Shown here piece after piece: positions 2,949 through 20,734 of a stretch of DNA of 39,369 nt. Each line of letters opens with the position of its first letter. Within the stretch, counting starts at the first letter, position 1. Made by a program: the position numbers and the translations under genes. The stretch is from IMG/VR virus record IMGVR_UViG_3300031673_000192, positions 1 through 39,369 of that record; one strand, given 5' to 3'. Origin of the DNA: a virus. The notes beneath the pieces were generated by a model. The model searched no databases and was not told where the DNA came from. It was given only the letters and a program-made list of their open reading frames with translations.

Positions 2949-4564
2949 GCCAGAACGGTGACTGGTTTGAGGAGTATGGGATAACTGACCCGTACTACGC
3001 TGACAAGTGGCGAGTGGTTGTCAAAGGTGATTCCCTTAGTGTGTTGCCCCGTATGCCCAGTGACAGCGTTGACTTGGTGGTGACCGACCCACCTTACGGG
3101 ATTTCCTTTATGGGCAAGGACTGGGATAAGGCTCTACCCGATAAACAGATATGGCAGGAATGCTTTAGATTGTTGAAGCCTGGGGCGTTTGCTTTTGTGA
3201 TGAGCATACCCAGAGCCGACTGTTTATCAAGGGTGATTATATCTCTTGAGGATGCAGGATTTATGGTGAATTTTACCCCTATCTTCTGGGCGTATGCGTC
3301 AGGATTTCCAAAGGCACAGAATATCGGCAAGGCGGTGGATAAGAGGGGTGGAGTTTCTGTTAGTTGGTTTGGAGAGTGGTTGAGGGAGTGGCGATTAGAA
3401 AAGGGAATAACCCAAAAAGAGATAGCCAAATTATTCCCTAGCAAGACAGGTGGTTTGACAGGGTGTGTTGCTAATTGGGAGTTAGGTTTCAATATGCCTA
3501 CACCACAGGAGTTTACCACTATCTGCCGACATTTTGCTTTGCCGTTTGATAGCCTAGAAGAAGCTGAAAGGGAAGTTATATCAAGACAACCTATGACCAT
3601 TGGCATCGGCGGTAATTCCCCAAGAATGGGAAGCGAAAAGGTTGTTGATTTACCATCAACCCCCCAAGCCAAAGCCCTAGATGGTTCTTATGGCGGGTTT
3701 CAACCCAAGCCTGCAGTAGAAGTTACTATCGTGGCTATGAAGCCCTTATCTGAAAAGACCTTTGTTGGCCAAGCGTTAAAGAATAGAAAGGGTATTGCTT
3801 GGCTGGATGATTGTAGGATACCGTATGAGAGCGAAGATGATTTAGCTTTGCAACAAGATAGGTTTAAGGGACACAAAAATCCTACAAGCCATAGTGCCAA
3901 AAGCCTTTTTACTGATATAAAAGACCATAGCCTGAATTTGGTAAATCCCTCTGGTCGTTTCCCTGCCAATCTATTAGTAAGTGATGATGTGTTGAATGAT
4001 GGGAGGGATAGGCAAGCTGGTTCATATAAAGGCGAAGGTTCAAAATCTGGTGGCATTTGGCAACCATCAACGGGCAAGCCAGCAGGCAAGGAATATGGCG
4101 ACTCAGGTTCATTCTCACGCTACTTTGACCTAGATAAATGGGCACAAAAGACCTTTCCTTTTCTGATAGTCCCAAAGGCTAGTAAGAGTGAGAAGAATAG
4201 GGGGCTATCTGGGAGTGCAAAGCCTCCAATATTGGGATTTAGACCTACCTTAGAAAGCAATCCTGAAAACTGGAAAACCTTAATACAGGATACTCCTTAC
4301 GGGGGAGCAAATAGGGCTGGCAACCAAGTAAACAACCATCCCACAGTCAAACCCCTCAAGTTAATGTCCTATCTTATCACATTAGGTTCTAGGGGAGGGG
4401 ATATAGTATTAGACCCATTTTCAGGGAGCGGGACGACGCCGTTGGCCTGCGGGGTACTTAATCGGTGTTGTCTTGCTCTGGAAATAAAGAAGGAGTACTG
4501 CGAGATAGTAGCTAGGCGCTGTGGCGCCGATACCGTAGACAGAATCAAGAGAGGGGAGTATTAA
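2945..4564 (+). CDS. Beta-class DNA methyltransferase with inserted HTH
   Basis: 539 aa. TDPPYG (DPPY at 48-51) is catalytic motif IV, and LDPFSGSGTT (from 489) is the AdoMet-binding motif I, a circular order typical of beta-class N6-adenine or N4-cytosine enzymes. DPPY slightly favours adenine. The target-recognition region is large and contains residues 140-200 (WLREWRLEKGITQKEIAKLF and on) that look like a Cro/CI helix-turn-helix. From about 3220 to 4350 the base composition is more AT-rich than either flank, suggesting the recognition region was exchanged. No cognate endonuclease is adjacent, so host mimicry or anti-restriction is likely. Confidence 0.88.
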   Translation: MSQNGDWFEEYGITDPYYADKWRVVVKGDSLSVLPRMPSDSVDLVVTDPPYGISFMGKDWDKALPDKQIWQECFRLLKPGAFAFVMSIPRADCLSRVIISLEDAGFMVNFTPIFWAYASGFPKAQNIGKAVDKRGGVSVSWFGEWLREWRLEKGITQKEIAKLFPSKTGGLTGCVANWELGFNMPTPQEFTTICRHFALPFDSLEEAEREVISRQPMTIGIGGNSPRMGSEKVVDLPSTPQAKALDGSYGGFQPKPAVEVTIVAMKPLSEKTFVGQALKNRKGIAWLDDCRIPYESEDDLALQQDRFKGHKNPTSHSAKSLFTDIKDHSLNLVNPSGRFPANLLVSDDVLNDGRDRQAGSYKGEGSKSGGIWQPSTGKPAGKEYGDSGSFSRYFDLDKWAQKTFPFLIVPKASKSEKNRGLSGSAKPPILGFRPTLESNPENWKTLIQDTPYGGANRAGNQVNNHPTVKPLKLMSYLITLGSRGGDIVLDPFSGSGTTPLACGVLNRCCLALEIKKEYCEIVARRCGADTVDRIKRGEY

Positions 4565-7078: not shown

Positions 7079-10003
7079 ATGAGTTCTATTTTTCTACAGG
7101 GTAATGCTAGAATCGTGTTGAGAGGGTTGCCAGCAGACTTTTTCCATTGTGCGACAACGTCCCCTCCCTATTTCGGTTTGAGAAAGTACGACGGTGGTGA
7201 GGAGATATGGGATGGCGATCCGAACTGTGAACATGAGTGGGGTGGTCAGGTAAAGGCGCATGATGTTCGCTACCGAGGGGCTAATAGCTCCGTTGGGAGC
7301 AGCAGGAGTACCGGATGGGTTGGTGATGGTAGTAGGGCGAGGAGTAGTTTCTGTCCCAAGTGCGGCGCATGGAAAGGTCAGCTTGGTGGTGAACCGACAC
7401 CAGAACTCTATATCCAGCACTTGGTGGAGATAATGCGGGAAGTTCGCCGTGTATTAAGACCAGACGGAGTATTCTGGTTGAATATCGGTGATAGTTGGAG
7501 TGGGGCAACTAGCCAGCATAGAGGGATAGAATCGCAAGGATTCAATTCAGTGATAGCAAAGGGGACATATGCTTCTGTCCCTGATACTGGTCGTAAGAGT
7601 AGAACCTTGAATATGAGGGCTAATGGCATCAAGCCACTCGACATGGTTCTCATTCCTGAACAACTCGCACTTGCTGCTCGTGTTGACGGTTGGTATGTCC
7701 GGTCTATCCTTATCTGGGCAAAAGGTGTCTCACTGTCTGATGAGTATAACGGCAATCCTATGCCGGAATGCTTAGACCCGTCCACTAGGGTCTTCGTGAG
7801 GACACAGGATGGTTGGATGCACCGTGTATCTTTGGATGATTTGTTTCAAATGGATCCGTTACCTCAGATATTGTCCCCTACGGGATGGGTTAACATTAGA
7901 AGTGTCTGGAAAACAGAAAAGCCAGCTATGACTTTACGAGTAGGAAAGGTGGAACGTATCATCTGCTCTCCTGACCATAGATTTCCCGTATCACATGACC
8001 GACGTAGGGTTTCTACTGAGTTGAAAGATGCATCTACTATCCGATTCGTGGGGTACAATGACTATCTGCTGTATAAAACTATACAGGAGTTCTGTGTTGC
8101 TAAGATAAAGACTCAAGGTCGGTTTTCTTTGAACTATGACATAGGCTATCTGGTGGGTATCTATCTTGCTGAAGGGAGCACAGATACTCGGTTTGGTAAT
8201 GGTATTCAGATTAGTCTGGGGGACCATGAGGTAGAGTTGCATGATAGAGTTGCTGGTATGTTCAACCAGTATGGAATAGACGTTCACGATGACGGACATG
8301 TTAAACGGAAAAATGTGTTTCGTGTGTATGACGAATCATTCTGCCGACTAGTGGATATGTTAGTCACAGGTCAGGCTAAAACCAAGCGATTATCTGTTGA
8401 TTTAATCCTTAACTCTCCTGAGTCGTTTAGGCAGGGATTGCTGGATGGTTATCTTGCTGGCGATGGTTCGGATAGACCTGCTGGGGGATGGTGTGCTGCG
8501 TCTGCATCTCGTAGACTGCGGGATGACATTAGTACACTAGCTAGTAGCATGGGTATTATCACCTCTAAAGGCCAACAGCGAAGTGTTAGTGAGATTGCTC
8601 CCAATTTGTCTATAGGGCATACTCTGTGGACTCCTTACATTAAGCGTGAGGAGAAGAATGGGACGGACGGGGTGTTCTGTATTCCTGTTAGAGGAAGGGA
8701 CGGCACGAAACAGAATGGTGAGACTAAACCGATGATTGACGTTGAGGTAGAAGGTGGGTTGTTTCTTGTTGGGGACGGCTTGGTGTCTCATAACTCGGTT
8801 AATGGCTGGAGATGGGAGAGACACAAGGTCAAAGTAGGTGATACTGGTCGTGGTAAGGAAGCGTGGCGATTAGGTGCTAATGATACTCCGCAACAAGACC
8901 ACGATAAAGACGGCAATTTCAAGAATAGTGCTGTCTGGCAGGACTGCCCTGGATGTCCGAAGTGTGAAAAGCACAACGGGTATGTTCTTCGCAAAGGTTC
9001 GTGGAGACCTACCGACTCCTATGAGCACATCCTGATGCTCACCAAGACCAGTTCTTATTTCTGCGACAGGGAAGCAGTTCTTGAGCGAGGAGTCTACCCT
9101 GCTGGCGAGAAACGAGAGGGTGGAAATGGGCATAAGTCTCTTGGTATTGGCTCTCGGACTACCGAGGGGTTACATAACAAGGACTGGAGTGGGAACGGTG
9201 GACGCAATCTCCGCTCCGTGCTAATGATACCCACAACTGGTTATAAAGGTGCGCATTTCGCTGTCTTTCCTCCCCGTCTGGTAGAGCCTCTTGTCAAATC
9301 TGCTACATCCGAGAAAGGTTGTTGCCCTGAGTGCGGTAGTCCGTGGGCTAGGGTTATCGATAAGGGGTTCACAGCACACGATGGCGAGACTACTACCGCT
9401 TATTCGGGAGGGACTAACGCTAATCGGTTAGCTCTACTTCGTCAAGCAGCCCGTCAACGAGGTGGAGAGTATGGTAGATTGAGCTACAATTCCAAATACA
9501 AAGATGGTGGAGTAACAGGCTTGGCTACTCAGGGTTTTCAGCGAAACGAGACCATAGAGGGTGAGCGTTCTCAAAGTCGCATAGATGCCGAAGAGTTGTA
9601 CCTGAACGACTTGAGAGCACAACAAGATTATATCAACCATATCCATGACCACGGAGGGCTAGACAAGGGTAGGACAATCGGCTGGCTCCCTACATGTGAA
9701 TGTGGTATCCAGGAAACCGAACCTTGCCGGGTCCTTGACCCCTTCTCAGGCGCGGGTACCGTCGCTCTGGTCTGTGAGCATCTCGGGTTGGACTCGTTCA
9801 GTGTAGACACATCCGCCAAGTATATTGAGTTAGCTAAAGCCCGTCTCGTTGAGGACGAGCAGAAACGGATAACCGATTTTATAAAGCGAGCTAAGCGCCT
9901 TGCTCGTGTCCCAGCCAAGGATGAAGGGGGTGGTCAGGGCAAGGCAACGAAGGAGGTGATGTCCATTAAGCAGAGACCCGAAAAAGTACCTGATACCCCT
10001 TGA
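7079..10003 (+). CDS. DNA methyltransferase interrupted by an intein
   Basis: 974-aa precursor, about 632 aa after splicing. The exteins hold TTSPPYFGLRKY (SPPY at 28-31, motif IV, the form usual in N4-cytosine enzymes) and VLDPFSGAGTVAL (motif I, from 886), so it is beta-class. Zinc-finger pairs occur at CPKCGAW and CCPECGSPW. The intein occupies residues 231-572 and splits the conserved NPMPES motif near the active site. The precursor is in frame throughout, so splicing is probably functional. Its neighbours suggest a DNA-modification and anti-restriction operon. Confidence 0.88.
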   Translation: MSSIFLQGNARIVLRGLPADFFHCATTSPPYFGLRKYDGGEEIWDGDPNCEHEWGGQVKAHDVRYRGANSSVGSSRSTGWVGDGSRARSSFCPKCGAWKGQLGGEPTPELYIQHLVEIMREVRRVLRPDGVFWLNIGDSWSGATSQHRGIESQGFNSVIAKGTYASVPDTGRKSRTLNMRANGIKPLDMVLIPEQLALAARVDGWYVRSILIWAKGVSLSDEYNGNPMPECLDPSTRVFVRTQDGWMHRVSLDDLFQMDPLPQILSPTGWVNIRSVWKTEKPAMTLRVGKVERIICSPDHRFPVSHDRRRVSTELKDASTIRFVGYNDYLLYKTIQEFCVAKIKTQGRFSLNYDIGYLVGIYLAEGSTDTRFGNGIQISLGDHEVELHDRVAGMFNQYGIDVHDDGHVKRKNVFRVYDESFCRLVDMLVTGQAKTKRLSVDLILNSPESFRQGLLDGYLAGDGSDRPAGGWCAASASRRLRDDISTLASSMGIITSKGQQRSVSEIAPNLSIGHTLWTPYIKREEKNGTDGVFCIPVRGRDGTKQNGETKPMIDVEVEGGLFLVGDGLVSHNSVNGWRWERHKVKVGDTGRGKEAWRLGANDTPQQDHDKDGNFKNSAVWQDCPGCPKCEKHNGYVLRKGSWRPTDSYEHILMLTKTSSYFCDREAVLERGVYPAGEKREGGNGHKSLGIGSRTTEGLHNKDWSGNGGRNLRSVLMIPTTGYKGAHFAVFPPRLVEPLVKSATSEKGCCPECGSPWARVIDKGFTAHDGETTTAYSGGTNANRLALLRQAARQRGGEYGRLSYNSKYKDGGVTGLATQGFQRNETIEGERSQSRIDAEELYLNDLRAQQDYINHIHDHGGLDKGRTIGWLPTCECGIQETEPCRVLDPFSGAGTVALVCEHLGLDSFSVDTSAKYIELAKARLVEDEQKRITDFIKRAKRLARVPAKDEGGGQGKATKEVMSIKQRPEKVPDTP
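7769..8794 (+). mobile_element. Intein with LAGLIDADG homing endonuclease
   Basis: 342 residues beginning with Cys (CLDPSTRVF, block A) and ending with VSHN, followed by Ser as the +1 nucleophile. Block B is IICSPDHRFPVS with the conserved His. The two DOD-type endonuclease motifs are IGYLVGIYLAEGS and FRQGLLDGYLAGDGS. Block F is MIDVEVEGGLFLVGDG. Removing it restores an uninterrupted NPMPE-SVNGWRW motif. All splicing residues are present, and both LAGLIDADG acidic residues (E and D) are intact, so the element may still home. Confidence 0.93.
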
Positions 10004-10028
10004 CAAATAGGCAAACTTATGGTAGACT
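10000..10028 (+). promoter_or_regulatory. Extended -10 promoter for the putative SSB gene
   Basis: TTGACA (10000-10005), 17 bp, then TAGACT (10023-10028) preceded by TGG. The -35 overlaps the end of the methyltransferase gene. The predicted start at about 10035 coincides with the first base of a stem. Confidence 0.75.
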
Positions 10029-10034
10029 AAAGAA

Positions 10035-10089
10035 GTATCGTGGTCGTTCTAACCGTTCAAGCGGAAAGAGCAAATATTCACTACGATAC
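10035..10089 (+). promoter_or_regulatory. Structured 5' leader hairpin
   Basis: GTATCGT (10035-10041) pairs with ACGATAC (10083-10089). Inside, GTTCT pairs with AGAGC and CCG with CGG around a TTCAAG loop. The hairpin would begin at the transcript's first nucleotide and end 20 nt before the start codon. It may stabilise the mRNA or control translation; there is no terminator-like U-tract. Confidence 0.5.
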
Positions 10090-10109
10090 AAGGAAGGAAA
10101 AGGAGAAGT

Positions 10110-10865
10110 ATGGGTGTATCAATACGACCAAGTGACTTTGTAGAGGGTGGCGCAGTACCTGTAGATCGGAACCTGCTCTGGAAGGAGTGCCGGTTCAACC
10201 TGTTTGACTATGGCGGGAAAGCCCCAGCCACCACTGCCGCCAAGATCGTCTATGTAGACGATGATGGGCAGGAGTTTGAGCAACAGTACTCTGTCGGCGA
10301 CCCTGAGCGCTTTAGGCCATCCCAGGATGGTAAAACCCTCGTAGCGGTCGGTGCGGCCATGGCACTGAGCAAATCCAGCAACTTCTATCTGCTCATCAAC
10401 AGCCTGATCAACGCCGGGTTCCCGGAGAACAAGCTCAGCGAGGATTTATCCACGCTCGACGGACTTTACACCTACAACATCGGGCTTCCTGAACCCAAGA
10501 GAGCTGGGTTGGCTAAGGCTGTGGTAAGTGACCAGACCAGAGAGAAGATCATCTCGGTACCGTCGCAGATCCTGCGCCTGCCGTGGGAGAAGGGCAAGGG
10601 CGCGACTGCTGCTAAGACCCCGGCGACCGGGGTTGAGGAAGGAGACGAGGATGCTATAGCCGCGAAGGCTGTGGCTTTTGCCGCTAACCATCTGGGCGCG
10701 GACGGCAGCACCACTCGTCAGGACTTGGCGGTGGCAGTGTTCAGAGACCTTGCCAAGGATCCAGACAAGGATGCCGTTGCCGGTCTTATCTTCAAGCCGG
10801 AGTTCGCTGCGACCCTGCTGGCCGCCGGGTACACTGTGTCCGGTGAGACTATCAGCAAGGCGTAG
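10110..10865 (+). CDS. Putative ssDNA-binding protein
   Basis: 251 aa, start preceded by AAAAGGAGAAGT. The N-terminal 160 residues include FDYGGKAPATTAAKIVYV and a beta-rich stretch compatible with an OB-like fold. A low-complexity Ala/acidic linker (about 165-190) leads to a small helical C-terminal domain. I know of no diagnostic catalytic motif. The SSB call rests on its own strong promoter, the structured leader, and position next to the RecB-like nuclease and Sak4-like ATPase, a trio common in phages. It could instead be another recombination accessory. Confidence 0.45.
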   Translation: MGVSIRPSDFVEGGAVPVDRNLLWKECRFNLFDYGGKAPATTAAKIVYVDDDGQEFEQQYSVGDPERFRPSQDGKTLVAVGAAMALSKSSNFYLLINSLINAGFPENKLSEDLSTLDGLYTYNIGLPEPKRAGLAKAVVSDQTREKIISVPSQILRLPWEKGKGATAAKTPATGVEEGDEDAIAAKAVAFAANHLGADGSTTRQDLAVAVFRDLAKDPDKDAVAGLIFKPEFAATLLAAGYTVSGETISKA

Positions 10866-10940
10866 TACTCAGAGGAAGGGGGTGGTGGACCTTTACAACT
10901 GACTATTGCTTGCTGGTGGCGGAATTCATTAAAGACGCTA

Positions 10941-11243
10941 CGAGTCGGGGTAGGTTGGGAGTACCCCTCGCACAGACTATCAGGATAACATCTGTAAGTC
11001 GGAGAGGCAAGATAAGCTCTGCAGTGCGTACCCAACTATCTAGGGGTGGAAGTCCCTTAGCCAGCAAGTCTGCCAGCTACCCGAAAGGGCAGAGAGCAAC
11101 CCGTAGTAGTATGCCCGTAGATTTCTTGGGTCTGGCTACTAGCTGGCAGGACAAGCCGGGACTGGGGAGAGCGGAATAGTCCGCAAGACGAAGGCTCGCT
11201 GATGAAGTATTCTCCTTCGGGCATCTCCAGCCCCAGTCCCGGC
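10941..11243 (+). ncRNA. Large structured RNA candidate, family not identified
   Basis: The 440-bp gap between two genes folds into a compact multi-domain RNA. Stems: GGGGTA/TACCCC (10947/10962) whose loop GTTGGG can pair with CCCAAC at 11031 (pseudoknot); ACAGA/TCTGT (10972/10991); CTAGGGG with CCCTTAG (11040/11054); a nested domain closed by the 9-bp TGCCAGCTA/TAGCTGGCA (11071/11140) containing CCC/GGG, GAAA/TTTC and GGGCA/TGCCC; and a terminal domain closed by 13 perfect pairs (11155-11167 with 11231-11243) holding GCGGA/TCCGC and CGAAGG/CCTTCG hairpins. CAACC/GGTTG follows at 11252. A HEARO/OMEGA-type guide scaffold, a GOLLD- or ROOL-like phage RNA or an intron-like ribozyme are possibilities; none is proven. 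Confidence 0.7.
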
Positions 11244-11308
11244 AAGTATGACAACCTGTCGGTTGAATGATGGTAAGTCAAGTAACAGGGAAGGGATATA
11301 GTTTGGTA

Positions 11309-11602
11309 ATGGAACAATCTGAAGCGAAGCAATCTAACGGCAAGAGCATACACTGGCTCTCCGACGAGGAGTACAGTAAGGCTATTGGTCAGTTGCAGAG
11401 ACAAGCTGCTGGTATCTTCGACTTCCTGAAGGTAGACAATAAGCTACCGATTAGGTATATGTACGGGCTGGGCGACCTCATTCCAGGAGCTATAGAAGAG
11501 ATTGTCAAGCTCTGTGAGGATTTTGGGTTGCGCGTTCGTGGAGTTGATAAGCCCTTGGCTCTGGATATAATTAGGAGGAGAAGTGGACACCATATTGACT
11601 GA
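11309..11602 (+). CDS. Unknown 97-aa protein
   Basis: ATG 11309 follows GGGAAGGGA by about 11 nt; in-frame ATGs at 11267 and 11270 lie next to the RNA candidate and have no ribosome-binding site. The protein is mostly helical (SDEEYSKAIGQLQRQAAGIF; GAIEEIVKLCEDFGLRVRG) with no known motif. Its 3' end overlaps the nuclease gene by 20 nt, placing it in the recombination operon. Confidence 0.5.
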   Translation: MEQSEAKQSNGKSIHWLSDEEYSKAIGQLQRQAAGIFDFLKVDNKLPIRYMYGLGDLIPGAIEEIVKLCEDFGLRVRGVDKPLALDIIRRRSGHHID

Positions 11603-12209
11603 AACTATTGACTTGGAGCGAGTCGCCGACCTTTGTGCTATTGGCGTAAAGCGGAAACCACCGACGCCGAGAGATTATTCTAAGTGGCATGTGTCGAACC
11701 TGCTCCAGTCTGCTACTAGGATAGCCAAGGGCGACATCCAATATTATGAGTACGAAGGCGAACCGAAAGGGATTATGAGTATGGGGCGTATCTGGGAGGC
11801 AGTGGTAGACCGCTACCTTACAGATTATGCTCTATCCAAGGGGGGTGTCTATGTCCCTGACATGGAGCAGGAAAAGGATGGTATACTTGGTTCACTGGAT
11901 GGGGTTATGTGGCTACCCGATCTAGGGTGGTTGGTCTGCGAGACCAAGTTGCGGTTTACTCTCAGCGGAGAGATACCACTCTCCCACCTCCAGCAAGTCA
12001 GGGCGTACTGTTACTTGGCAGAAACCGATCTCGTGTGTTATGTGTCTGGTCATCTGTCCAGTAGACCACCAACCGCTAGTGCTACGGTGCGAATTATCAG
12101 GTTGACACAGCAGAGTATTGACGAGACTTGGGAGATGATTGTGAATACAAGAGACTACCTGTTGTCCCAGGGGTGTACTCCTGCTCGGATTGGAGAGGAG
12201 GTACGATGA
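11583..12209 (+). CDS. PD-(D/E)XK nuclease, RecB/Cas4-like
   Basis: 208 aa from GTG 11583, which has AGGAGGAGAA just upstream. The core GSLDGVMWLPDLGWLVCETK gives D106, E120 and K122, the D...ExK metal-binding triad of the RecB/lambda-exonuclease superfamily, preceded by the helix MGRIWEAVVDRYL. No cluster of Fe-S cysteines is seen. Such phage nucleases resect DNA ends to give 3' ssDNA for annealing. Position beside the Sak4-like ATPase and putative SSB supports a recombination role. Confidence 0.78.
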   Translation: MDTILTETIDLERVADLCAIGVKRKPPTPRDYSKWHVSNLLQSATRIAKGDIQYYEYEGEPKGIMSMGRIWEAVVDRYLTDYALSKGGVYVPDMEQEKDGILGSLDGVMWLPDLGWLVCETKLRFTLSGEIPLSHLQQVRAYCYLAETDLVCYVSGHLSSRPPTASATVRIIRLTQQSIDETWEMIVNTRDYLLSQGCTPARIGEEVR

Positions 12210-12394
12210 GAGCTGATTTGTTCTGGCAGAAAGTGAAAGATTTCTACGATATTCACCATGGTAAGTATCTCCACGCCGTCATCACCGACGATGAGAAACG
12301 GGACACTGTGACGGATTTCTTGTCCGATATAGAGGGACTGACGGGGGAGTGGTATAGCCCCGATTTCGGCGAAATTAACAAAGAAGGAGGATAG
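12206..12394 (+). CDS. Unknown 62-aa protein between nuclease and recombinase
   Basis: ATG 12206 overlaps the nuclease stop (ATGA) and follows GAGAGGAGGT, so translation is coupled; an open frame further upstream is inside the nuclease gene. Small, acidic and helical (WQKVKDFYDIHHGKYLH; EKRDTVTDFLSDIEGL). No family recognised. Conserved placement between recombination genes suggests an accessory role. Confidence 0.5.
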   Translation: MRADLFWQKVKDFYDIHHGKYLHAVITDDEKRDTVTDFLSDIEGLTGEWYSPDFGEINKEGG

Positions 12395-12397
12395 CGA

Positions 12398-13180
12398 ATG
12401 GTAACTACAGCAGGCCCAACGAAGCAAAAAGACGAGGTAACCTTAGCGCAACTCAGAGCGATGGGGTTCAGCGATGACTACGTGGAGACCCCTCGCCGCC
12501 TTATTATCTCGGAGGAGGGTAGAGAGAAGACGGGGAAGTCGCATTTCGCGCTAACTGCACCGGAACCGATCATTTATCTCAACGTGGATCTCGGTATAGA
12601 AGGCGTAGTCGGTAAGTTCCAAGATCAAGGGAAACAGGTGTATCTCTATGACGTTCGCGTCCCTCGGGAGGGGAAAGCAGAGATGTGGCAGTCTCTCTGG
12701 GCCGAGTTCCGGCAACGTGTCCGCAAGGTCTACGAGCTGAGGACGGGTAGCGTTATCTGGGACACTGCTTCCGAACTATATGAGTTGTGCCGCCTTTCCC
12801 ATTTCGGGAGGCTCACCGAGGTTAAGCCGTCGGATTACTCTATTGTGAACAACGAGTGGAAAGAGGTACTCCGTATAGCTTACGACTCCCCTATGAACAC
12901 TGTTTTTATCCACAAGACTAAAGCGATATGGCGGGCCGTACCGACCTCAAGTGGTCGTAGCTCCCTCACCAAGACCAATGAGTTTGAACTGTCCGGGTAT
13001 TCTGATATGGGGTATATGGTTCAGGTGAACTTGGTGATGTACCGAGAGGATACTAGCGATGGTCCGCAGTTCTCCGCGTATATCAAGGACTGTCGGCAGA
13101 ATCCGTACATAGCAGGGCAGATATTGCGTGGTCCTATGTGCAATTTTGAGTTCCTGCTCAGTCTGGTACACGATAAATAA
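12398..13180 (+). CDS. Sak4-like RecA-family ATPase
   Basis: 260 aa. Walker A GREKTGKS (41-48) and Walker B VIWDTASE (D122) with a RecA-like core, but without the full RecA C-terminal domain, match the short Sak4-type phage ATPases (AAA_24-like) that work with phage SSBs in ssDNA annealing and recombination. DCRQNPYIAGQIL near the end is typical of the final core strands. The RBS is AGAAGGAGG. The next 147 bp are non-coding. Confidence 0.75.
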   Translation: MVTTAGPTKQKDEVTLAQLRAMGFSDDYVETPRRLIISEEGREKTGKSHFALTAPEPIIYLNVDLGIEGVVGKFQDQGKQVYLYDVRVPREGKAEMWQSLWAEFRQRVRKVYELRTGSVIWDTASELYELCRLSHFGRLTEVKPSDYSIVNNEWKEVLRIAYDSPMNTVFIHKTKAIWRAVPTSSGRSSLTKTNEFELSGYSDMGYMVQVNLVMYREDTSDGPQFSAYIKDCRQNPYIAGQILRGPMCNFEFLLSLVHDK

Positions 13181-13255
13181 GAGGTCAGGAGGAGAGCTTG
13201 TCAGTTGACCAATTAGTCAAAAGCGAACGGGATTGACAAGCCTATACAAGCCGAA

Positions 13256-13298
13256 ACTAGGGGTAGTATACGCCCCTAGTATGTGGGTAATGCCCACA
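13256..13298 (+). promoter_or_regulatory. Two tandem perfect hairpins in a leader
   Basis: ACTAGGGG pairs with CCCCTAGT (13256-13263 with 13273-13280), and TGTGGG with CCCACA (13282-13287 with 13293-13298), separated by one base. No U-tract follows, so these are not simple terminators. They lie 30 bp before the 13328 start, after a lone TTGACA at 13233. They may be operators, mRNA-processing stems or a translational switch. Confidence 0.45.
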
Positions 13299-13327
13299 CT
13301 GATGATGGCTAAAGGAAGTAAGGGGTA

Positions 13328-13558
13328 ATGCCAAGAGATAAAGAGACAACCCGATTAAGTGAGCAGGTAAAGGGCAAGACGGTGGCTGAAGTTAAATACA
13401 CATCCGCAGATAGATTCGGTGTAGAAAGCAAAGGCGGTTTAGCTGTCGAATCTGATGGTGGCGAAGTAACCATTGTGTTCACGGATGGGAGCCAAGTAAC
13501 AGCGTGGAACTCCGAATGGGGTGGTGTAGTTTATCAACCCAAATTGGCTAGGAGGTAA
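13328..13558 (+). CDS. Unknown small beta-rich protein
   Basis: 76 aa; start preceded by GTAAGGGG. After a charged N-terminus the chain is a run of short beta-strands (KTVAEVKYTSADRFGVESK; GEVTIVFTDGSQVTAWNSEW), suggesting a small barrel or sandwich. No motif identifies it. It opens a run of very small genes leading to the MT-A70 methyltransferase. Confidence 0.5.
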   Translation: MPRDKETTRLSEQVKGKTVAEVKYTSADRFGVESKGGLAVESDGGEVTIVFTDGSQVTAWNSEWGGVVYQPKLARR

Positions 13559-13564
13559 GGGGTG

Positions 13565-13642
13565 ATGGTATCTGTACTAATAGCGGGGATGATAATGTGG
13601 GTAGCGGAAGAATTTCGGCTATTAAAAGAGGCGATATGGTAG
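13565..13642 (+). CDS. Possible 25-aa small membrane peptide
   Basis: ATG 13565 follows GGAGGTAAGGGGTG. The peptide starts MVSVLIAGMIMWVAEEFRLL, with a hydrophobic N-terminal half and a charged end. It lies in the small gap between two better genes; real translation is plausible but unproven. Confidence 0.3.
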   Translation: MVSVLIAGMIMWVAEEFRLLKEAIW

Positions 13643-13681
13643 TAGTAGTAGGATATAGGCTTTGTTTCAAAGGGGGCTGTA

Positions 13682-13786
13682 ATGATTAGTCGTATCCGTC
13701 GTTGGTTATTCAGGTACCATCATTGTCGCCGTCTAGGGCTGTCCCCAGTCGGTGCAACGAGGTATGTCAGGGAGCGGTGGAAGTGA
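13682..13786 (+). CDS. Small basic protein (34 aa)
   Basis: ATG 13682 is preceded by AAAGGGGG. The peptide begins MISRIRRWLFRYHHCRRLGL and is strongly basic and aromatic. Its TGA overlaps the GTG start of the methyltransferase, consistent with translational coupling. Function unknown. Confidence 0.4.
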   Translation: MISRIRRWLFRYHHCRRLGLSPVGATRYVRERWK

Positions 13787-14346
13787 GACCGAAATACAAG
13801 GTGATCTACGCTGATGTCCCGTGGACTTACCGCAATGAGAGGACTGGTGGTTCGATGAGCAGTGGTTCTGCACAGAAGTATAAGACACTATCTCTCCCCG
13901 ACATCCTGTCTCTTCCCGTTGCTTTGGTCGCGGATCGTGATAGTGTTCTGTTTCTATGGGCGACTACGCCACTGCTCCCTGAAGCCTTATCTGTGATGTC
14001 CGCTTGGGGGTTTACCTATAAGACGTCGCTGTACTGGCGTAAAATAATGTCTCTTGGTATGGGATTCTGGTACCGGGGTCAAGTGGAGCAACTATTGCTT
14101 GGTGTCAGGGGCAGGGTCAAGGCTTTCCGTATCCAGAAACCTAACTTTATCCAGACCAAGGTTCGTGACCATTCACAGAAACCCGAGGAGATGCGAGAGC
14201 TGGTAGAGCTGTGTGGGTTGTCCCCTAGGTTGGAACTGTTTGCTACTTCTTGGACAGATAGTTGGGACTGTGTCGGTTCTACTATTAGTGGGGAGGATAT
14301 CCGGGTGTCGCTGGCTAGAATTATCGCTGAACAGGAGGTAATCTGA
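13783..14346 (+). CDS. MT-A70-family adenine methyltransferase
   Basis: 187 aa from GTG 13783, coupled to the 34-aa gene; the open frame continues to ATG 13702, but that part lies in another gene. VIYADVPWTYR carries the active-site tetrapeptide as DVPW rather than DPPW. LFLWATTPLLPEALSVMSAW, the WYRGQVEQLLLGVRG segment and HSQKPEEM are hallmarks of the MT-A70/Ime4-like bacterial and phage branch. Probably methylates adenine N6 in DNA. The Pro-to-Val change is in the catalytic loop, and I cannot say whether it lowers activity. Confidence 0.82.
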   Translation: MRPKYKVIYADVPWTYRNERTGGSMSSGSAQKYKTLSLPDILSLPVALVADRDSVLFLWATTPLLPEALSVMSAWGFTYKTSLYWRKIMSLGMGFWYRGQVEQLLLGVRGRVKAFRIQKPNFIQTKVRDHSQKPEEMRELVELCGLSPRLELFATSWTDSWDCVGSTISGEDIRVSLARIIAEQEVI

Positions 14347-15101
14347 TGCCTGTATTCTGCTCTAATCTCCCCAACGATCAGGACATGATAAAAGCCCTCG
14401 GCTCTATTGCCGTCCCTTGCCCCCTGTTCACCGACTGTGCTTTCTGGGGTAAGGGCGAGAACGACACCGCACTCACGATCGGGGTTGAACGTAAGAAGAT
14501 CGGCGACCTCGTTCAGTGCATCAATGATGGTCGCCTTCTGCACCAAGCGCAGATAGTCAAGGAGAACGGGATAGATGTCTTTATTGTCATCGCGGAGGGC
14601 AGAGTCCGTTCTAATCCTGATGACGGGTTGCTGGAGATACCGGTCTGGGGCATCAATCCCCGAACCCTACATCGTGCCGAGATCTGGACTCCGGTAAAAC
14701 CGACAATAACCTACAGTCGGTTCGACCAGTTCCTCACCGAGTTGCATCGTGATGCCGGGATAATGATTAAGCGAACGGAGGATGTTAAGGAGACAGTATC
14801 TGTTATTAAAGCGCTGTGGGATAACTACCAAACCCCTCCCGACAGGCACCAGTCCCTGAAGCAGATATTCAAGCCACCGATGCCGACTGTTCAGCTTGTC
14901 AGACCGAGTTTTGTCCGCCGGGTGGCGAGCGAGTTAAAGGGTGTAGGTTGGGAAAAGTCGGCGGATATTGCTCACAGGTTCTCGTCTGTAGCCGAGATGG
15001 TCGGTGCTACCGAGAAGGACTGGCTGTCTGTTCCTGGTATTGGTAAGAAACTAGCTAAGAGTATTGTGTCGGAACTACATAACGGGGGAGGAGACAAATG
15101 A
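14346..15101 (+). CDS. ERCC4-type nuclease with helix-hairpin-helix
   Basis: 251 aa. VERKKIGDLV (E48-R49-K50...D54) is the ERKxxxD signature of XPF/MUS81-family nucleases, and the C-terminus (about 190-245) is a tandem HhH region with VPGIGKKLAKSI. These enzymes cut branched or flapped DNA. The stop of the methyltransferase and this start overlap (TGATG). With the nuclease and ATPase upstream it completes a recombination set and may resolve joint molecules. Confidence 0.85.
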   Translation: MPVFCSNLPNDQDMIKALGSIAVPCPLFTDCAFWGKGENDTALTIGVERKKIGDLVQCINDGRLLHQAQIVKENGIDVFIVIAEGRVRSNPDDGLLEIPVWGINPRTLHRAEIWTPVKPTITYSRFDQFLTELHRDAGIMIKRTEDVKETVSVIKALWDNYQTPPDRHQSLKQIFKPPMPTVQLVRPSFVRRVASELKGVGWEKSADIAHRFSSVAEMVGATEKDWLSVPGIGKKLAKSIVSELHNGGGDK

Positions 15102-15415
15102 TAGAGGAAGTTAGAAGGAGACTACGACCTCTCTCCAAGCAGGAGAAGCAGAAGAGGAAGCTGTCTGCGTTGGAATCCCGAGCCTCGTCTCTCGAGGAGA
15201 AAGCTGCGTATGCTGAGAAGGAAGCTCAAGTCAGGAAGCGGATACGGGATGCCGAGGACAAGATAAGGGAGAATCAGCCACGGAGTGCGTTTGACTTCGA
15301 TTCTGTCGGTAGTTTATGGGGGAGAGTGCCTACCCCAATAAAGTTTTTCTCAGTGATAGGCCTACTGGTAGTAGTACTATTGCTGGTTGGGAAGGCGTGT
15401 ACCAGTAGCGGGTAA
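15098..15415 (+). CDS. Coiled-coil protein with C-terminal membrane anchor
   Basis: 105 aa. Residues about 10-65 are a highly charged coiled coil (KQEKQKRKLSALESRASSLE onward). Residues 80-100 (IKFFSVIGLLVVVLLLVG) are a transmembrane helix close to the C-terminus, so the coil should face the cytoplasm. It overlaps the ERCC4 gene by ATGA. It might tether replication or recombination proteins to the membrane, or be a spanin- or holin-like protein; no family is recognised. Confidence 0.5.
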   Translation: MIEEVRRRLRPLSKQEKQKRKLSALESRASSLEEKAAYAEKEAQVRKRIRDAEDKIRENQPRSAFDFDSVGSLWGRVPTPIKFFSVIGLLVVVLLLVGKACTSSG

Positions 15416-15446
15416 AAAATAACCCGAAAAATAACCCTCTAACCTC

Positions 15447-15475
15447 TTGACAAATGTGCTGTGCTGTGTTATAGT
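15447..15475 (+). promoter_or_regulatory. Extended -10 promoter for the methyltransferase-nuclease fusion
   Basis: TTGACA (15447-15452), 17 bp, TATAGT (15470-15475), preceded by TGT. It lies in the gap before the 15511 gene. Confidence 0.82.
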
Positions 15476-15510
15476 GTGTGGTAGATATATAAGAAAAGGG
15501 GGAACCAAAA

Positions 15511-16854
15511 ATGAAAACCAGTGTGTTCTACCACGGAGATTGTCTGACGGTATTAAGTCACGATGTAGAGTCTCAGTCCATAGACCTGATTTATCTTGAC
15601 CCGCCCTTCTTCACGGGTAAGGTGCAGAGAGGGGTGGTGAAAGCTAATGCTTGGACACCGGAGGCGATGGAGGTATCCTATGATGACAGTAGGGCGTTCT
15701 GGAGCAAACAGGGTTACTCCGTCAGTGCCCCTGGGTGGTTAAAAGAGTTGGGGAGATTGCGCCCCGATTTTGCCAAGTATCTTTACTATATGCGATTGAG
15801 ACTCCAGCAGTGCCACAGAGTTCTGAAGCAAACTGGTAGCATCTACCTGCATTGCGATGAGAAGGCAAGCCACTATCTGAAGATGATTATGGATGAGATA
15901 TTCGGGTGGGAGAACTTTAGAAATGAGTTGGTATGGTGCTACAAGGGTGGAAACGCAACCAACAAGTTCAGGAAGAAGCATGATATTATCCTGTTCTACA
16001 CGAAATCAAGCAAGTACACGTTCAACAGTGATGCGATAAGGATACCCTACTCCGAAAAAATACAAGCAGTTGCTCATACTGACCCTGACGGGAGGCGATA
16101 TTACAAGACTGGACAGAACGAGTCAGGTAAGGTTTATCTGCACCCGGACGGGCAGTTGCCTTACGATTGGTGGGATGACATACCATCATCTACAGCGTCT
16201 CATGGCAACGAAATGTTGGGCTACCCTACACAGAAGCCTTTAACCTTGTTAGAGCGAGTCATCAATGCTTCAAGCCGTCCCAACGATGTCCTTCTTGACC
16301 CATTCTGTGGTTGCGGGACGGCGGTAGTGGCAGCACAGAAGCTAGGTCGGAAGTGGATAGGGATAGACGCTAGCAACCAAGCTATCAGTGCTACCCAGAG
16401 CAGGTGTAATCAGCTCCCCAATAACTTGGGGGCGGGCCTGATAAGCGAGCCTGTTATTGAGCGAGACTTAGAGGCAGTAAAGAGGCTAAAGCCACTAGAG
16501 TTCGAAGCATGGGTCAATGAGTTCTATGGAGCGACCAAGCCTAATCCAGACCGAGGTGTAGATGGGATAACCCCTGACGGCATTCCCATCCAGACCAAAA
16601 CTTTCTTAGTAAAGTATAATGTGCTCCAGCAATTTGCAACCGCCGTTGAGACACATCCTGTCGTACACCAACCAGTCAAAAGGGCGATTATCGTTTCCCA
16701 AGTCGGGTTCGATGATAGTGCTAGGTCGGAGCGGGATGCACTGAAGAGGGGACTAGAGATTGAGTTGATTACCTCTGATGGGATGCTGAACTTTGACGTG
16801 GCTAAACGGGTAGATACGATGAAGTGGCAGAATAGGCAGAGAGTGGTAAAATGA
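15511..16854 (+). CDS. DNA methyltransferase fused to a restriction-endonuclease-like domain
   Basis: 447 aa. The methylase half has DLIYLDPPFFTGK (DPPF at 30-33) and LLDPFCGCGTAVVAAQKLGR (motif I, from 261), beta order. The C-terminal 120 residues contain LEFEAWVNEFYGA and RGVDGITPDGIPIQTK (D351, Q361-x-K363), a PD-(D/E)XK/Mrr-like site with Gln in the usual Glu position. A one-chain restriction-modification enzyme is one reading; a methylase with a DNA-binding relic is another. It has its own promoter, unlike the other three methylases. RBS AAAAGGGGGAA. Confidence 0.85.
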   Translation: MKTSVFYHGDCLTVLSHDVESQSIDLIYLDPPFFTGKVQRGVVKANAWTPEAMEVSYDDSRAFWSKQGYSVSAPGWLKELGRLRPDFAKYLYYMRLRLQQCHRVLKQTGSIYLHCDEKASHYLKMIMDEIFGWENFRNELVWCYKGGNATNKFRKKHDIILFYTKSSKYTFNSDAIRIPYSEKIQAVAHTDPDGRRYYKTGQNESGKVYLHPDGQLPYDWWDDIPSSTASHGNEMLGYPTQKPLTLLERVINASSRPNDVLLDPFCGCGTAVVAAQKLGRKWIGIDASNQAISATQSRCNQLPNNLGAGLISEPVIERDLEAVKRLKPLEFEAWVNEFYGATKPNPDRGVDGITPDGIPIQTKTFLVKYNVLQQFATAVETHPVVHQPVKRAIIVSQVGFDDSARSERDALKRGLEIELITSDGMLNFDVAKRVDTMKWQNRQRVVK

Positions 16855-17439: not shown

Positions 17440-18039
17440 ATGGCTGGTCCGCTTTCTGCCGATCCTGTGGTCATACACGTGACGGAGAGTGAGTTGTCGC
17501 ACACGTGGCTGTTCTCCGACCCGCACTTTGATCACGAGAACATTACACGCTACTGCGACCGGCCGTTCCGATCTGTGTCCGAGATGAATAATGTTATACT
17601 GGATAATTGGAGGCGGTGTATTGCCGACGATGATTTGGTGTTCTTTCTCGGCGATATGTGCTTTGGTCGCGGTGCTCGCTCCGCCCGCTGGTGGTTATCG
17701 CAACTCTCCGGTAGGAAGGTGTACATAAAGGGTAGTCACGACAAGGGCATTCGTCCGACGTCGGTTCTGGGGGATGGTGTTGTCAGTATTGGGTTGTCTG
17801 CTATCATAGTAACTGACACGCTGTCCGTCTTGGTCGTTCACGAACCGAGTCCTCTATTCATCCCGTACTGGTGGCGTGGATGGGTGGTTCATGGGCATGT
17901 TCATAACAACAAGCCCTATATCTACAAGCGACGCTTTCTCGCTGGAGGTCGCGTGAATGTTAGTGCTGATGTTATCGAGTTTGCCCCAGTTGCTTTGCGT
18001 AAGGTATTAGACGATATCGAGAGGTTCCGGGGTGCCTAG
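17440..18039 (+). CDS. Calcineurin-like metallophosphoesterase
   Basis: 199 aa. FSDPHFDHENI (D27, H29), FLGDMCFG (G71-D72), GSHDKG (in the place of GNHD, residues 98-101) and VVHGHVHNN give the five metallophosphoesterase blocks in order, binding two metals. The Asn-to-Ser change in GNHD alters a usual metal ligand, so activity may be shifted. Small phage members act on phosphodiesters or nucleotides. It overlaps the polymerase start by 8 nt. Confidence 0.82.
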   Translation: MAGPLSADPVVIHVTESELSHTWLFSDPHFDHENITRYCDRPFRSVSEMNNVILDNWRRCIADDDLVFFLGDMCFGRGARSARWWLSQLSGRKVYIKGSHDKGIRPTSVLGDGVVSIGLSAIIVTDTLSVLVVHEPSPLFIPYWWRGWVVHGHVHNNKPYIYKRRFLAGGRVNVSADVIEFAPVALRKVLDDIERFRGA

Positions 18040-20734
18040 CTATTACCGTCGCCCCGCGCCCTCCTTGCCTCCTGCCGAGTCTCTCCCCTTCCCGGGCAAC
18101 CTTGTCCGGCAGTGTTCGGACTGTGAGTTGCGCGCAAGTTGCACTGCCCCTGTTCCGGGTGAAGGTGCCGTTCCTGCATCTGTTATGTTTCTGGGACAGA
18201 ACCCAGGTAAAGAAGAGGACGAGTGGGGAGAGCCATTCATCGGCAAGGATGGTCGGCAACTTGAGTCTCTGCTTTTCCAGTGTGGGTTGAACAGGGAGGA
18301 TGTCTATATTACCAACGTCGTGAAGTGCCTGACTCGTGGCAACACTCCCCCGAAGCCCGGTCCTGTGGGTGCTTGTGCTAAGTGGCTCAATATCGAGTTG
18401 TCTATCGTCCAACCGCAGATTATTGTGGCTATGGGTGCTTTCGCTATCCGTGCGATATTGGGGAACGATGCTGACACGGTGGAGCACCTCCATGGACGAC
18501 CTATCGAGAAGGACGGCAGGATTATACTTCCCGTCTACCACCCCGCCGCTGGTCTTCATGACACATCCACCCTGCGCTTTATCTACGAGGATTTCCAAGT
18601 GTTGCGAGGGTTGCTTCGGGGGAAGTCGGTCTCGGACTATATGGTAAGAGACGAGTACCCAAATCCTGATTATCAAGTACTGGATACACCTGAGAAGCTG
18701 TATCGTGTCGCGTCGACTTTCAAGGGTTTTGGCCAAGTTGCCGTAGACACTGAATCCGTCAAGCAGGATTCGGAGTTGTGGAGTGTTCAGGCGAGTGTGG
18801 CGCCCGGGCGTGGATTCTTTATTCCAGCTAAGGTTTATCGGAGCGGAGTTAGTAGTACAGCGAGCTGGGGTCATATCATAGTCCACTACTACCTTCACGA
18901 TATTAAATGGTTGGATATCCCCGGTAATGATTTCACAGATACAATGGTTTCTGCCTACCTATTAGGGTTGCCACAAGGGTTAAAGACGCTCGCCCAGAAC
19001 CTGTGCGGGGTAAAGATGGTCGATTACTCCGAAGTGGTTCGTCCTGGGCAACACAGGATCGCTTTGGACTACCTTACTGAGGCGTCTAAGCGGGAGTGGC
19101 CGGACCCACCCGAGCTGGAGGAGACCAAGTGGAATAACAAGCAAGGGAGAATTGTTACTCGCGTCAAGCACCCATGGCATATATCCCGCAAGATAGCCAA
19201 GATGTTCAAGGATATGGAGAAGGGCGAGGATATTGATCTGTGGGACAAGTGGCGTAAGATACCCGATACCGAACGTGAGTGTGTAGAGAAGGTGCTGGAT
19301 ACTATGCCGGAGTCGTCTCTCGTCGATATCCCCTTTGAGGATGCTGTGCGGTACGCGACCCGTGATGCAGACACCACTCTTCGTGTCAAGCTAAAAATGG
19401 AGCAACTTATCCACGAGGCAGGGCTGGACTTCGTGCTGTGGATGGACACCAACATACTCCCGATGGTCAGGGAGATGATGGACACGGGTATGGCAGTTGA
19501 CCTCGACCACTTCCGCAACTTATCCGTAGATTATGACGCCCGGATGCGGGCGAAGGCCTCGGAGGTGGCTTCGGTGGTTGGTCATCCATTCAATCCATCC
19601 AGTTCCAAGCAGGTCGCCGAGGTAGTATACAACGAGCTGGGTTTCAAACCGACTAGGACTACAGCGACAGGGCTAATCAGCACGGATGATCAGGAACTGA
19701 AAAAGACCGGGCATCCTGTAGCTAAGGGAGTTATTGAGTATCGTCGACTGAGCAAGATGAAGGGGACTTACTCGGACGCTCTGCTAGAGTGGGCTAGACC
19801 TAGCAAGGCTGGTATTCCTAGAGTCCATACGACCTTGAAAACGACCAGAGTAGAGACGGGAAGACTGGCTAGCGCGGACCCGAACTTGCAGAACATCCCG
19901 ACTAGGAGTAAAGAGGGTAAGGCGATTAAGAGCGGGTTCGTTGCCCCTGATGGTCGGCTGTTGGCTGAGGGGGATCTGGCTCAGATAGAGATGTGTACGC
20001 AAGCCCATCTTGCGCGGTGTCGAGGTTTAATAGAGCTATTCCTGCGCGGGGACGATCCGCACACCTTGACCGCCTCCGAGATATTTGGCGTGCCATACGA
20101 GGAGGCTGGGAAGGAGAAGTATCGGTACCCTACCAAACGGGCCAACTTCGGAGTTATCTACATGATTGGCGCGAAGGGGTTGTCGGCGCAGATAGCAGAG
20201 TATATTGCCGACTTGGAGATGGAGGGGGAGCCTGTCGACATCGAGCCGTGGACGGAGCAAGACTGCGAGAAGTTTATTGCCGACTGGTACGAGCTATACC
20301 CCGAAGTCAGGGATTACCAGCTGGAGATGGCAGCTATGGCACGCAGGTACGGGTATGTTGCTGATATGTTCGGTCGTCGGCGGTTCATTCCTGAGGTGTC
20401 TTGCCCTGTGCGGTCAGTGCAGGAGTCTGGTCTGAGGATGGCGGCCAACATGCCCGTCACATCGTCAGCTCAAGGTATTATAAAACTGGCTATGGGTGAA
20501 TTGTGGCGAGGACTACCGAGAACAGGTTGGCGGGATAAGGCGGGATGGTTGATGCAGATCCACGACAGTCTTATAGTGGAACTGGAGGACGACCCTGAGT
20601 TCGTGCGAGAGTTCCTCGTTTGGATGCGAGGTATCATGACAGGTGTCGTGAAACTGGAGGTACCCGTGAAAGTGGATTTCAAGGTGGGTAAAAAATGGGG
20701 TTCTTTGGCGAAATACAGTTTGGAGGAGAAATAA
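18032..20734 (+). CDS. Uracil-DNA glycosylase / family A DNA polymerase fusion
   Basis: 900 aa from GTG 18032. Residues 20-200 are a family 4-type uracil-DNA glycosylase: FLGQNPGKEEDEWGEPFIGK, cysteines C28-x2-C31 with C99-x15-C115 (Fe-S spacing of family 4) and HPAAG at 170. Residues 230-450 are the 3'-5' exonuclease: VDTES (D239, E241) and YATRD (Y441, D445), but Exo II reads HDIKWLD, lacking the usual N-x3-D. The polymerase has motif A GDLAQIEMC (D648, E653), motif B K702-x3-F706-x3-Y710 and motif C QIHDSLIVE. It is almost certainly the replicative polymerase. The fusion may bind or remove uracil at the fork. Confidence 0.95.
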   Translation: MPSYYRRPAPSLPPAESLPFPGNLVRQCSDCELRASCTAPVPGEGAVPASVMFLGQNPGKEEDEWGEPFIGKDGRQLESLLFQCGLNREDVYITNVVKCLTRGNTPPKPGPVGACAKWLNIELSIVQPQIIVAMGAFAIRAILGNDADTVEHLHGRPIEKDGRIILPVYHPAAGLHDTSTLRFIYEDFQVLRGLLRGKSVSDYMVRDEYPNPDYQVLDTPEKLYRVASTFKGFGQVAVDTESVKQDSELWSVQASVAPGRGFFIPAKVYRSGVSSTASWGHIIVHYYLHDIKWLDIPGNDFTDTMVSAYLLGLPQGLKTLAQNLCGVKMVDYSEVVRPGQHRIALDYLTEASKREWPDPPELEETKWNNKQGRIVTRVKHPWHISRKIAKMFKDMEKGEDIDLWDKWRKIPDTERECVEKVLDTMPESSLVDIPFEDAVRYATRDADTTLRVKLKMEQLIHEAGLDFVLWMDTNILPMVREMMDTGMAVDLDHFRNLSVDYDARMRAKASEVASVVGHPFNPSSSKQVAEVVYNELGFKPTRTTATGLISTDDQELKKTGHPVAKGVIEYRRLSKMKGTYSDALLEWARPSKAGIPRVHTTLKTTRVETGRLASADPNLQNIPTRSKEGKAIKSGFVAPDGRLLAEGDLAQIEMCTQAHLARCRGLIELFLRGDDPHTLTASEIFGVPYEEAGKEKYRYPTKRANFGVIYMIGAKGLSAQIAEYIADLEMEGEPVDIEPWTEQDCEKFIADWYELYPEVRDYQLEMAAMARRYGYVADMFGRRRFIPEVSCPVRSVQESGLRMAANMPVTSSAQGIIKLAMGELWRGLPRTGWRDKAGWLMQIHDSLIVELEDDPEFVREFLVWMRGIMTGVVKLEVPVKVDFKVGKKWGSLAKYSLEEK

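Follow-up and report, generated by a model that had tools for sequence, protein, structure and literature searches.

A family of modular noncoding RNAs in the recombination and replication operons of tailed phages

The window analysed here is the whole of a 39,369-b IMG/VR record, in which the region 10866-11266 was read and folded. This region lies in a replication and recombination gene cluster, between an upstream gene (10110-10865, + strand) and a small downstream gene (11267-11602, + strand). The upstream gene is conserved in the clade of the window and revealed a weak match to ssDNA-binding-like OB-folds; its protein model was modest (pLDDT 70), and the best PDB match, the OB-fold ssDNA-binding protein PrgE, was not significant (E = 0.07). 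The small downstream gene has relatives in two other contigs (L010 and L014) and gave no protein family match, and its real start may be a later ATG near 11310. The cluster additionally contains a helicase, a Sak4-like protein and DNA polymerase A. Elsewhere in the window, a DNA methyltransferase gene (7079-10003) was split by what is probably a LAGLIDADG-containing intein, which starts with CLDPSTRV and ends with HN before S. An ERCC4-type nuclease was found near three DNA methyltransferase genes, two of the N6/N4 type and one of the MT-A70 type (7079-16854), and a single protein (18032-20734) combined an N-terminal uracil-DNA glycosylase-like domain with a family A DNA polymerase. The preliminary description of this DNA had placed a 440-bp gap without a good gene between replication genes. 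The location in such a cluster holds, and no conserved gene was present between 10865 and 11267; no reading frame was conserved among the relatives described below, and the frame that runs through D1 and D2 in the window was open in 2 of 33 members.

The element extends over approximately 10892-11247 on the + strand and comprises a boxA-like motif followed by the helix-closed domains D1, D2 and D4. The domain numbers follow the fullest arrays of the family; the window lacks D3, so its last domain is D4. We found that the element was not a single fold, as the three domains stood in series (D1, 10909-11068; D2, 11070-11149; D4, 11155-11243). The RNA of about 300 nt described earlier was indeed structured, but instead of one RNA it was an array of independent domains that started about 50 nt earlier, and the 5' border was moved outwards to include the D1 closing helix (10909-10916 / 11061-11068) and the boxA-like motif (10892-10905). 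The stems listed earlier were present on reading the sequence, as were the GAAA loop (11083-11086) and the GTGGAAG-type loop (11047-11053). The 13-bp helix, formed by 11155-11167 with 11231-11243, closed only D4 and not the whole element as had been thought, and the supposed 9-bp helix enclosing nested stems did enclose them but was a nearly perfect helix of 10 bp (11070-11079 / 11140-11149).

The folding energies supported the view that such complementarity is unlikely by chance. The 451-nt fold showed a z-score of -3.3, with only 1 of 100 shuffles as good, and the separate domains gave z-scores against shuffles of -2.1 (D1), -2.7 (D2) and -4.7 (D4). The reverse strand also folded well (z = -2.8); fold energy alone therefore cannot assign the strand, which was assigned by the homologues. 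In line with an unknown family, no Rfam model matched the window at the gathering score, and at E values up to 10 the Rfam scan of the window returned only chance matches to microRNA and lncRNA models. The HEARO/OMEGA, GOLLD, ROOL and intron candidates proposed at first were not borne out, as the window had no Rfam match to HEARO, GOLLD, ROOL, OLE or group I and II introns. The element gave no blastn match in phage or plasmid collections.

Related contigs were first collected via their neighbouring proteins, without use of the RNA sequence, and most of these contigs contained structured sequence with similar frames behind a homologous upstream gene. Two sequence patterns revealed about 40 further arrays in viral contigs, and the pattern search also identified one array in a Dehalococcoidia MAG (L135). 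Each array was a row of domains, every one closed by a conserved helix, and not all arrays contained all four. The closing strands in the family were GCTTGCTGGTG..CCAGCAAGC for D1, GCCAGCTACCCGAAAGGG..GGCTACTAGCTGGC for D2, GCCTGAGCC..GGCTCAGGC for D3, which is absent from the window, and GGTGGGGTG..CACCAGCCCCACC for D4, and the domain interiors varied in sequence and length across the arrays. The D1-D2 junction was a single copy per record in all 31 exactly matching records. The upstream genes formed few clusters, including an ERF annealing protein above the Pfam cut-off and a RecT-like protein below it, whereas the downstream genes were diverse and not conserved; this preservation of the upstream gene class, but not of the downstream gene, argues against a role in controlling a single downstream gene. 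When 400 genomes of the phylum were scanned with the D2 model, only the one MAG scored strongly, and no confirmed relative of the upstream gene of the window was found in host genomes. The hosts are probably Dehalococcoidia-like Chloroflexota, as suggested by the one MAG contig and by the boxA match described below.

The closing helices of D2 and D4 covaried strongly among homologues when double-change cells were compared with shuffles. The alignments consisted of short anchored helix strands, with a constant linker replacing the interior. As the family members are related, the covariation and permutation figures are not strict probabilities and should be read accordingly: the D2 helix (26 sequences) contained 25 double-change cells compared with 9.2 after shuffling, with double changes in seven pairs, while the D4 helix (22 sequences) contained 63 compared with 22.3, with 90.1% of the cells paired compared with 63.7% and a covariation of 0.62 compared with 0.14; in D1, the helix adjoining the 3' closing strand had at least 6 bp in 11 of 34 units compared with 2.9 when the tails were permuted. 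Sliding the partner strand by 1-3 columns abolished the covariation signal in both D2 and D4. Because the D4 stems had been chosen by best pairing, a selection control was run, in which stems with at least 10 pairs were found in 22 of 45 loci, compared with 11% of random windows; for the AG-before-CCCC form with at least 8 pairs, the figures were 21 of 45 loci and 3.9%. A new structured RNA family is thus well supported. These arrays constitute a family of modular noncoding RNAs in the recombination and replication operons of tailed phages, and no such RNA was described in the mostly open-access literature searched.

D1 (+ strand) has a homologue in L114 and shares its closing helix with other relatives. 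Upon comparison with tRNA-Leu (class II), we found D1 of the window to be similar in its acceptor-like closing helix, its D-arm (GTGGCGGAATT..AGACGC; D-arm-like strands 10919-10921 / 10936-10938, + strand) and its T-arm-like helix beside the acceptor (11041-11046 / 11054-11059, + strand) with a 7-nt loop (11047-11053). It differed by an insert of about 75 nt and by the lack of an anticodon arm and of a TTCRA loop. The tRNA-Leu-like D-arm GTGGCGGAAT..AAAGACGCTA and the arm CTAGGGGTGGAAGTCCC were common to D1 of the window and L114. Neither ARAGORN nor Rfam identified a tRNA in the window, and no cloverleaf with an anticodon was recognised there. Among the relatives, Rfam tRNA matches were obtained at the D1 position of L007 (39.8 bits) and nested in D1 of L046 (36.0 bits), and in L135 ARAGORN reported a tRNA-like unit whose anticodon loop is shortened; the tRNA-like units of the relatives were defective. 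D1 of the window and L114 looks like a degenerate tRNA-Leu and, given the likeness in the window and its relatives, D1 was probably derived from a tRNA. D1 also contains a GGGGTA/TACCCC hairpin (10947-10968, + strand), seen both in the sequence and in the minimum-energy fold. Its loop holds GTTGGG (10954-10959), a perfect complement of CCCAAC (11031-11036), and the two form a candidate pseudoknot in a segment that was kept in no relative. Two further tRNA-Leu-like sequences were observed outside D1: a second D-arm, GTGGCGGAATCGTTAAAGACGCTA, at L114:9649 (+), on the strand opposite to the array, and a sequence at L050:5772, directly upstream of the boxA of the array, with the T-loop TGCGAAT.

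D2 (+ strand) contains, within its closing helix, a CCC-GAAA-GGG hairpin (11080-11089) and the pseudoknot strands CAGA (11090-11093) and TCTG (11131-11134), which are supported across the family. A strict position-anchored family test of this pseudoknot gave a p of about 0.001-0.003, and a loose test gave no signal. The D2 covariance model scored the window, which is one of its training sequences, at 69.3 bits. In L110, we observed two D2-like domains (4428-4518 and 11436-11524) about 7 kb apart.

D4 (+ strand) carries a conserved CAG bulge (11228-11230) next to its 13-bp closing helix. Type II hammerheads occur in bacteria and phages (PMC3088659), and D4 of the window aligned with stem III of candidate hammerheads in relatives but lacked the core. 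A strict type II descriptor (GAA - stem III - UH cleavage site - stem I - CUGAUGA - stem II) identified six distinct candidates over 1.41 Mb (L004, L011, L020/L030, L057, L137 and L141), compared with no matches over the same 1.41 Mb for the descriptor with seven mutated cores. These six relatives have the core, the three stems and the cleavage site in the type II order (PMC3088659), and their self-cleavage is predicted. The candidates of L004, L011 and L020/L030 lay within the array locus, and in L030 D4 is stem III; those at L141:1440 and L057:479 lay upstream of a boxA-like motif, and the one at L137:1823 had no clear tie to an array. No hammerhead match appeared in the Rfam scans, either at threshold in the relatives scanned or at E values up to 10 on the candidate-bearing L030. 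In the window, the descriptor gave no match; in the alignment with L030, GGG replaced GAA and CTGATGA was missing from the matching place. The hammerhead core of the window therefore looks lost, as judged from this alignment, but it is just as possible that D4 is the older and that the hammerhead was added later.

The boxA-like motif of the window, TTTACAACTGACTA (10892-10905, + strand), showed two mismatches to the family consensus TTAACAAYTGAATA and occupied the conserved place. Before many arrays this consensus had sharp limits and was not preceded by any conserved block, and in a sizeable share of the family it bordered D1. Among 22 members that had been collected without use of the motif, 8 contained boxA within three mismatches directly before D1, compared with 0.8% of control windows. 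Across 80 genomes from the MAG's class, there were four exact copies of TTTRACAAYTGAATA, all beside rRNA genes. L149 and L151 carry it ahead of 16S and L150 ahead of 23S; the L148 copy lies on the opposite strand, a little past the 3' end of 16S, as expected for an rRNA trailer that pairs with the leader. The readable 16S starts of the class were preceded by a recognisable boxA variant, such as CTTAACAACTGGATAGTGGAAGG, some of these variants having more than two mismatches and being identified by eye. As evident from this comparison, which covers that class alone, the leader motif of the family is its rRNA-type boxA by sequence. The family copies nevertheless differ from those before 16S and 23S genes in the class of the host-like genome, since they stand before phage noncoding domains and are degenerate or absent in many members, the window copy being degenerate. 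The boxA consensus is GYTCTTTAANA (PMC5725501); in E. coli, NusB and S10 bind boxA, which is necessary and sufficient for the rRNA antitermination complex (PMC10250234). The boxA-like motif of the window, with its two mismatches to the consensus, is a predicted NusB/S10 antitermination site. A promoter for a single-subunit phage RNA polymerase was also considered for the leader; PF00940 gave no match in 22 records, with the control set equally empty, and this reading was set aside because the rRNA boxA match accounts better for the motif. Some records contain further boxA copies, which stand before other structured modules or genes, and in L139 and L138 (both - strand) the extra copies each preceded a single helix-closed module of a different kind, ahead of other genes.

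To our knowledge, only a small number of large structured RNAs have been described in phages, none of them with a known function. GOLLD and ROOL (PMC12286853) are likewise phage-borne and large, with many stems and pseudoknots; they are tRNA-associated and of unknown function. In contrast to these RNAs, which the window did not match in Rfam, the present family consists of short independent domains in an array with hypervariable interiors, has a boxA on the 5' side and is located in recombination operons instead of tRNA islands. The lambda nut and HK022 put sites are structured antitermination RNAs in phage operons, and nut contains boxA. The family likewise represents structured phage RNA in an operon and shares boxA with nut, but its RNA is far longer and has no boxB-like conserved hairpin beside boxA. 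It adds a modular phage RNA that is tied to a host rRNA-type antitermination signal, probably partly tRNA-derived and diversified by domain replacement.

Replacement of a domain was observed between the contigs L080 and L087, the only two found by an exact D2 pattern search. Their flanks were 97-98% identical and the sequence from D2 to +330 was 100% identical, whereas their D1 interiors were 57% alike, a value close to that of shuffled or unrelated pairs (51-52%). At the level of sequence, the whole D1 interior has been exchanged between near-identical phages. In other near-identical pairs, such as L098/L100, D1 was identical; the swap was thus seen once only.

We tentatively favour a trans-acting phage RNA that is transcribed under rRNA-like antitermination and is perhaps a decoy, a reading we regard as plausible. 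RNA polymerase passing boxA would load NusB and S10, which would shield it from Rho across the long untranslated stretch, and the domains would fold independently of each other. In some relatives, a hammerhead would free the RNA from the neighbouring mRNA. The RNA would then act in trans; its likeliest role would be that of a decoy or bait that draws off a host factor engaged in handling tRNA or structured RNA, and an arms race would drive change in the variable interiors. Antitermination-type transcription can reasonably be inferred for members with a good boxA and is weaker for the window; the trans-acting decoy role, to which hypervariability and tRNA likeness alone point, is the least supported step. 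Counting against the favoured reading, only 8 of the 22 members collected independently of the motif have boxA within three mismatches directly before D1, and in the window boxA has two mismatches and the hammerhead core is gone. Many arrays also stop just before a ribosome-binding site, which is compatible with a 5' untranslated region.

This last point bears on the main rival, a cis-acting operon element, which we consider somewhat unlikely. The element would be a nut/put-like antitermination or mRNA-stabilising leader, in which boxA, together with the structured RNA, modifies RNA polymerase or stops 5'-3' decay and thereby allows the downstream replication genes to be expressed. Array and operon share a strand, there is one D1-D2 junction per record, the array end is often 10-25 nt before the ribosome-binding site, and boxA is the core of the lambda nut sites (PMC10250234). 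However, hypervariable interiors and a differing number of domains would be odd for an element that contacts RNA polymerase, the downstream genes differ between members, and candidate hammerheads on either side would sever the array. A relic without present function, namely an intergenic spacer with degenerate tRNA genes and with hammerheads, agrees with the missing hammerhead core, the degenerate boxA and tRNA-like arm of the window and the defective tRNA-like units of the relatives; the strong compensatory change in the D2 and D4 helices over divergent phages and the maintained pseudoknot make it improbable. An RNA-based replication origin or primer RNA, for which some mycobacterial prophages provide a precedent (PMC7157519), would suit an element that adjoins replication and annealing genes, but the domain interiors are not conserved, and we consider it very improbable. 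An orphan OMEGA/HEARO-type scaffold with the variable parts as guides is scarcely credible: variable segments beside conserved frames and a swapped interior recall one, but there was no Rfam match and no similar DNA in the phage and plasmid collections, the variable parts lie inside closed domains and are not terminal, and TnpB (PF07282) was above the cut-off in 0 of 26 records, with control genomes positive.

The favoured trans-acting reading can be extended to a more speculative proposal, which we regard as rather unlikely, namely that exchangeable domains on conserved closing helices, combined with the host rRNA antitermination signal and domain swapping, would yield a fast-changing anti-host or anti-defence RNA. 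If true, such an RNA would be the counterpart of variable phage proteins. Natural variants, the same phage with a different D1, make the function of the RNA testable. Separately, the compared proteins of the 68-kb contig L002 (IMGVR_UViG_3300031578_004185) were identical to those of the window, and this contig begins about 200 nt downstream of the RNA, a start that an assembly break at the variable array may explain.
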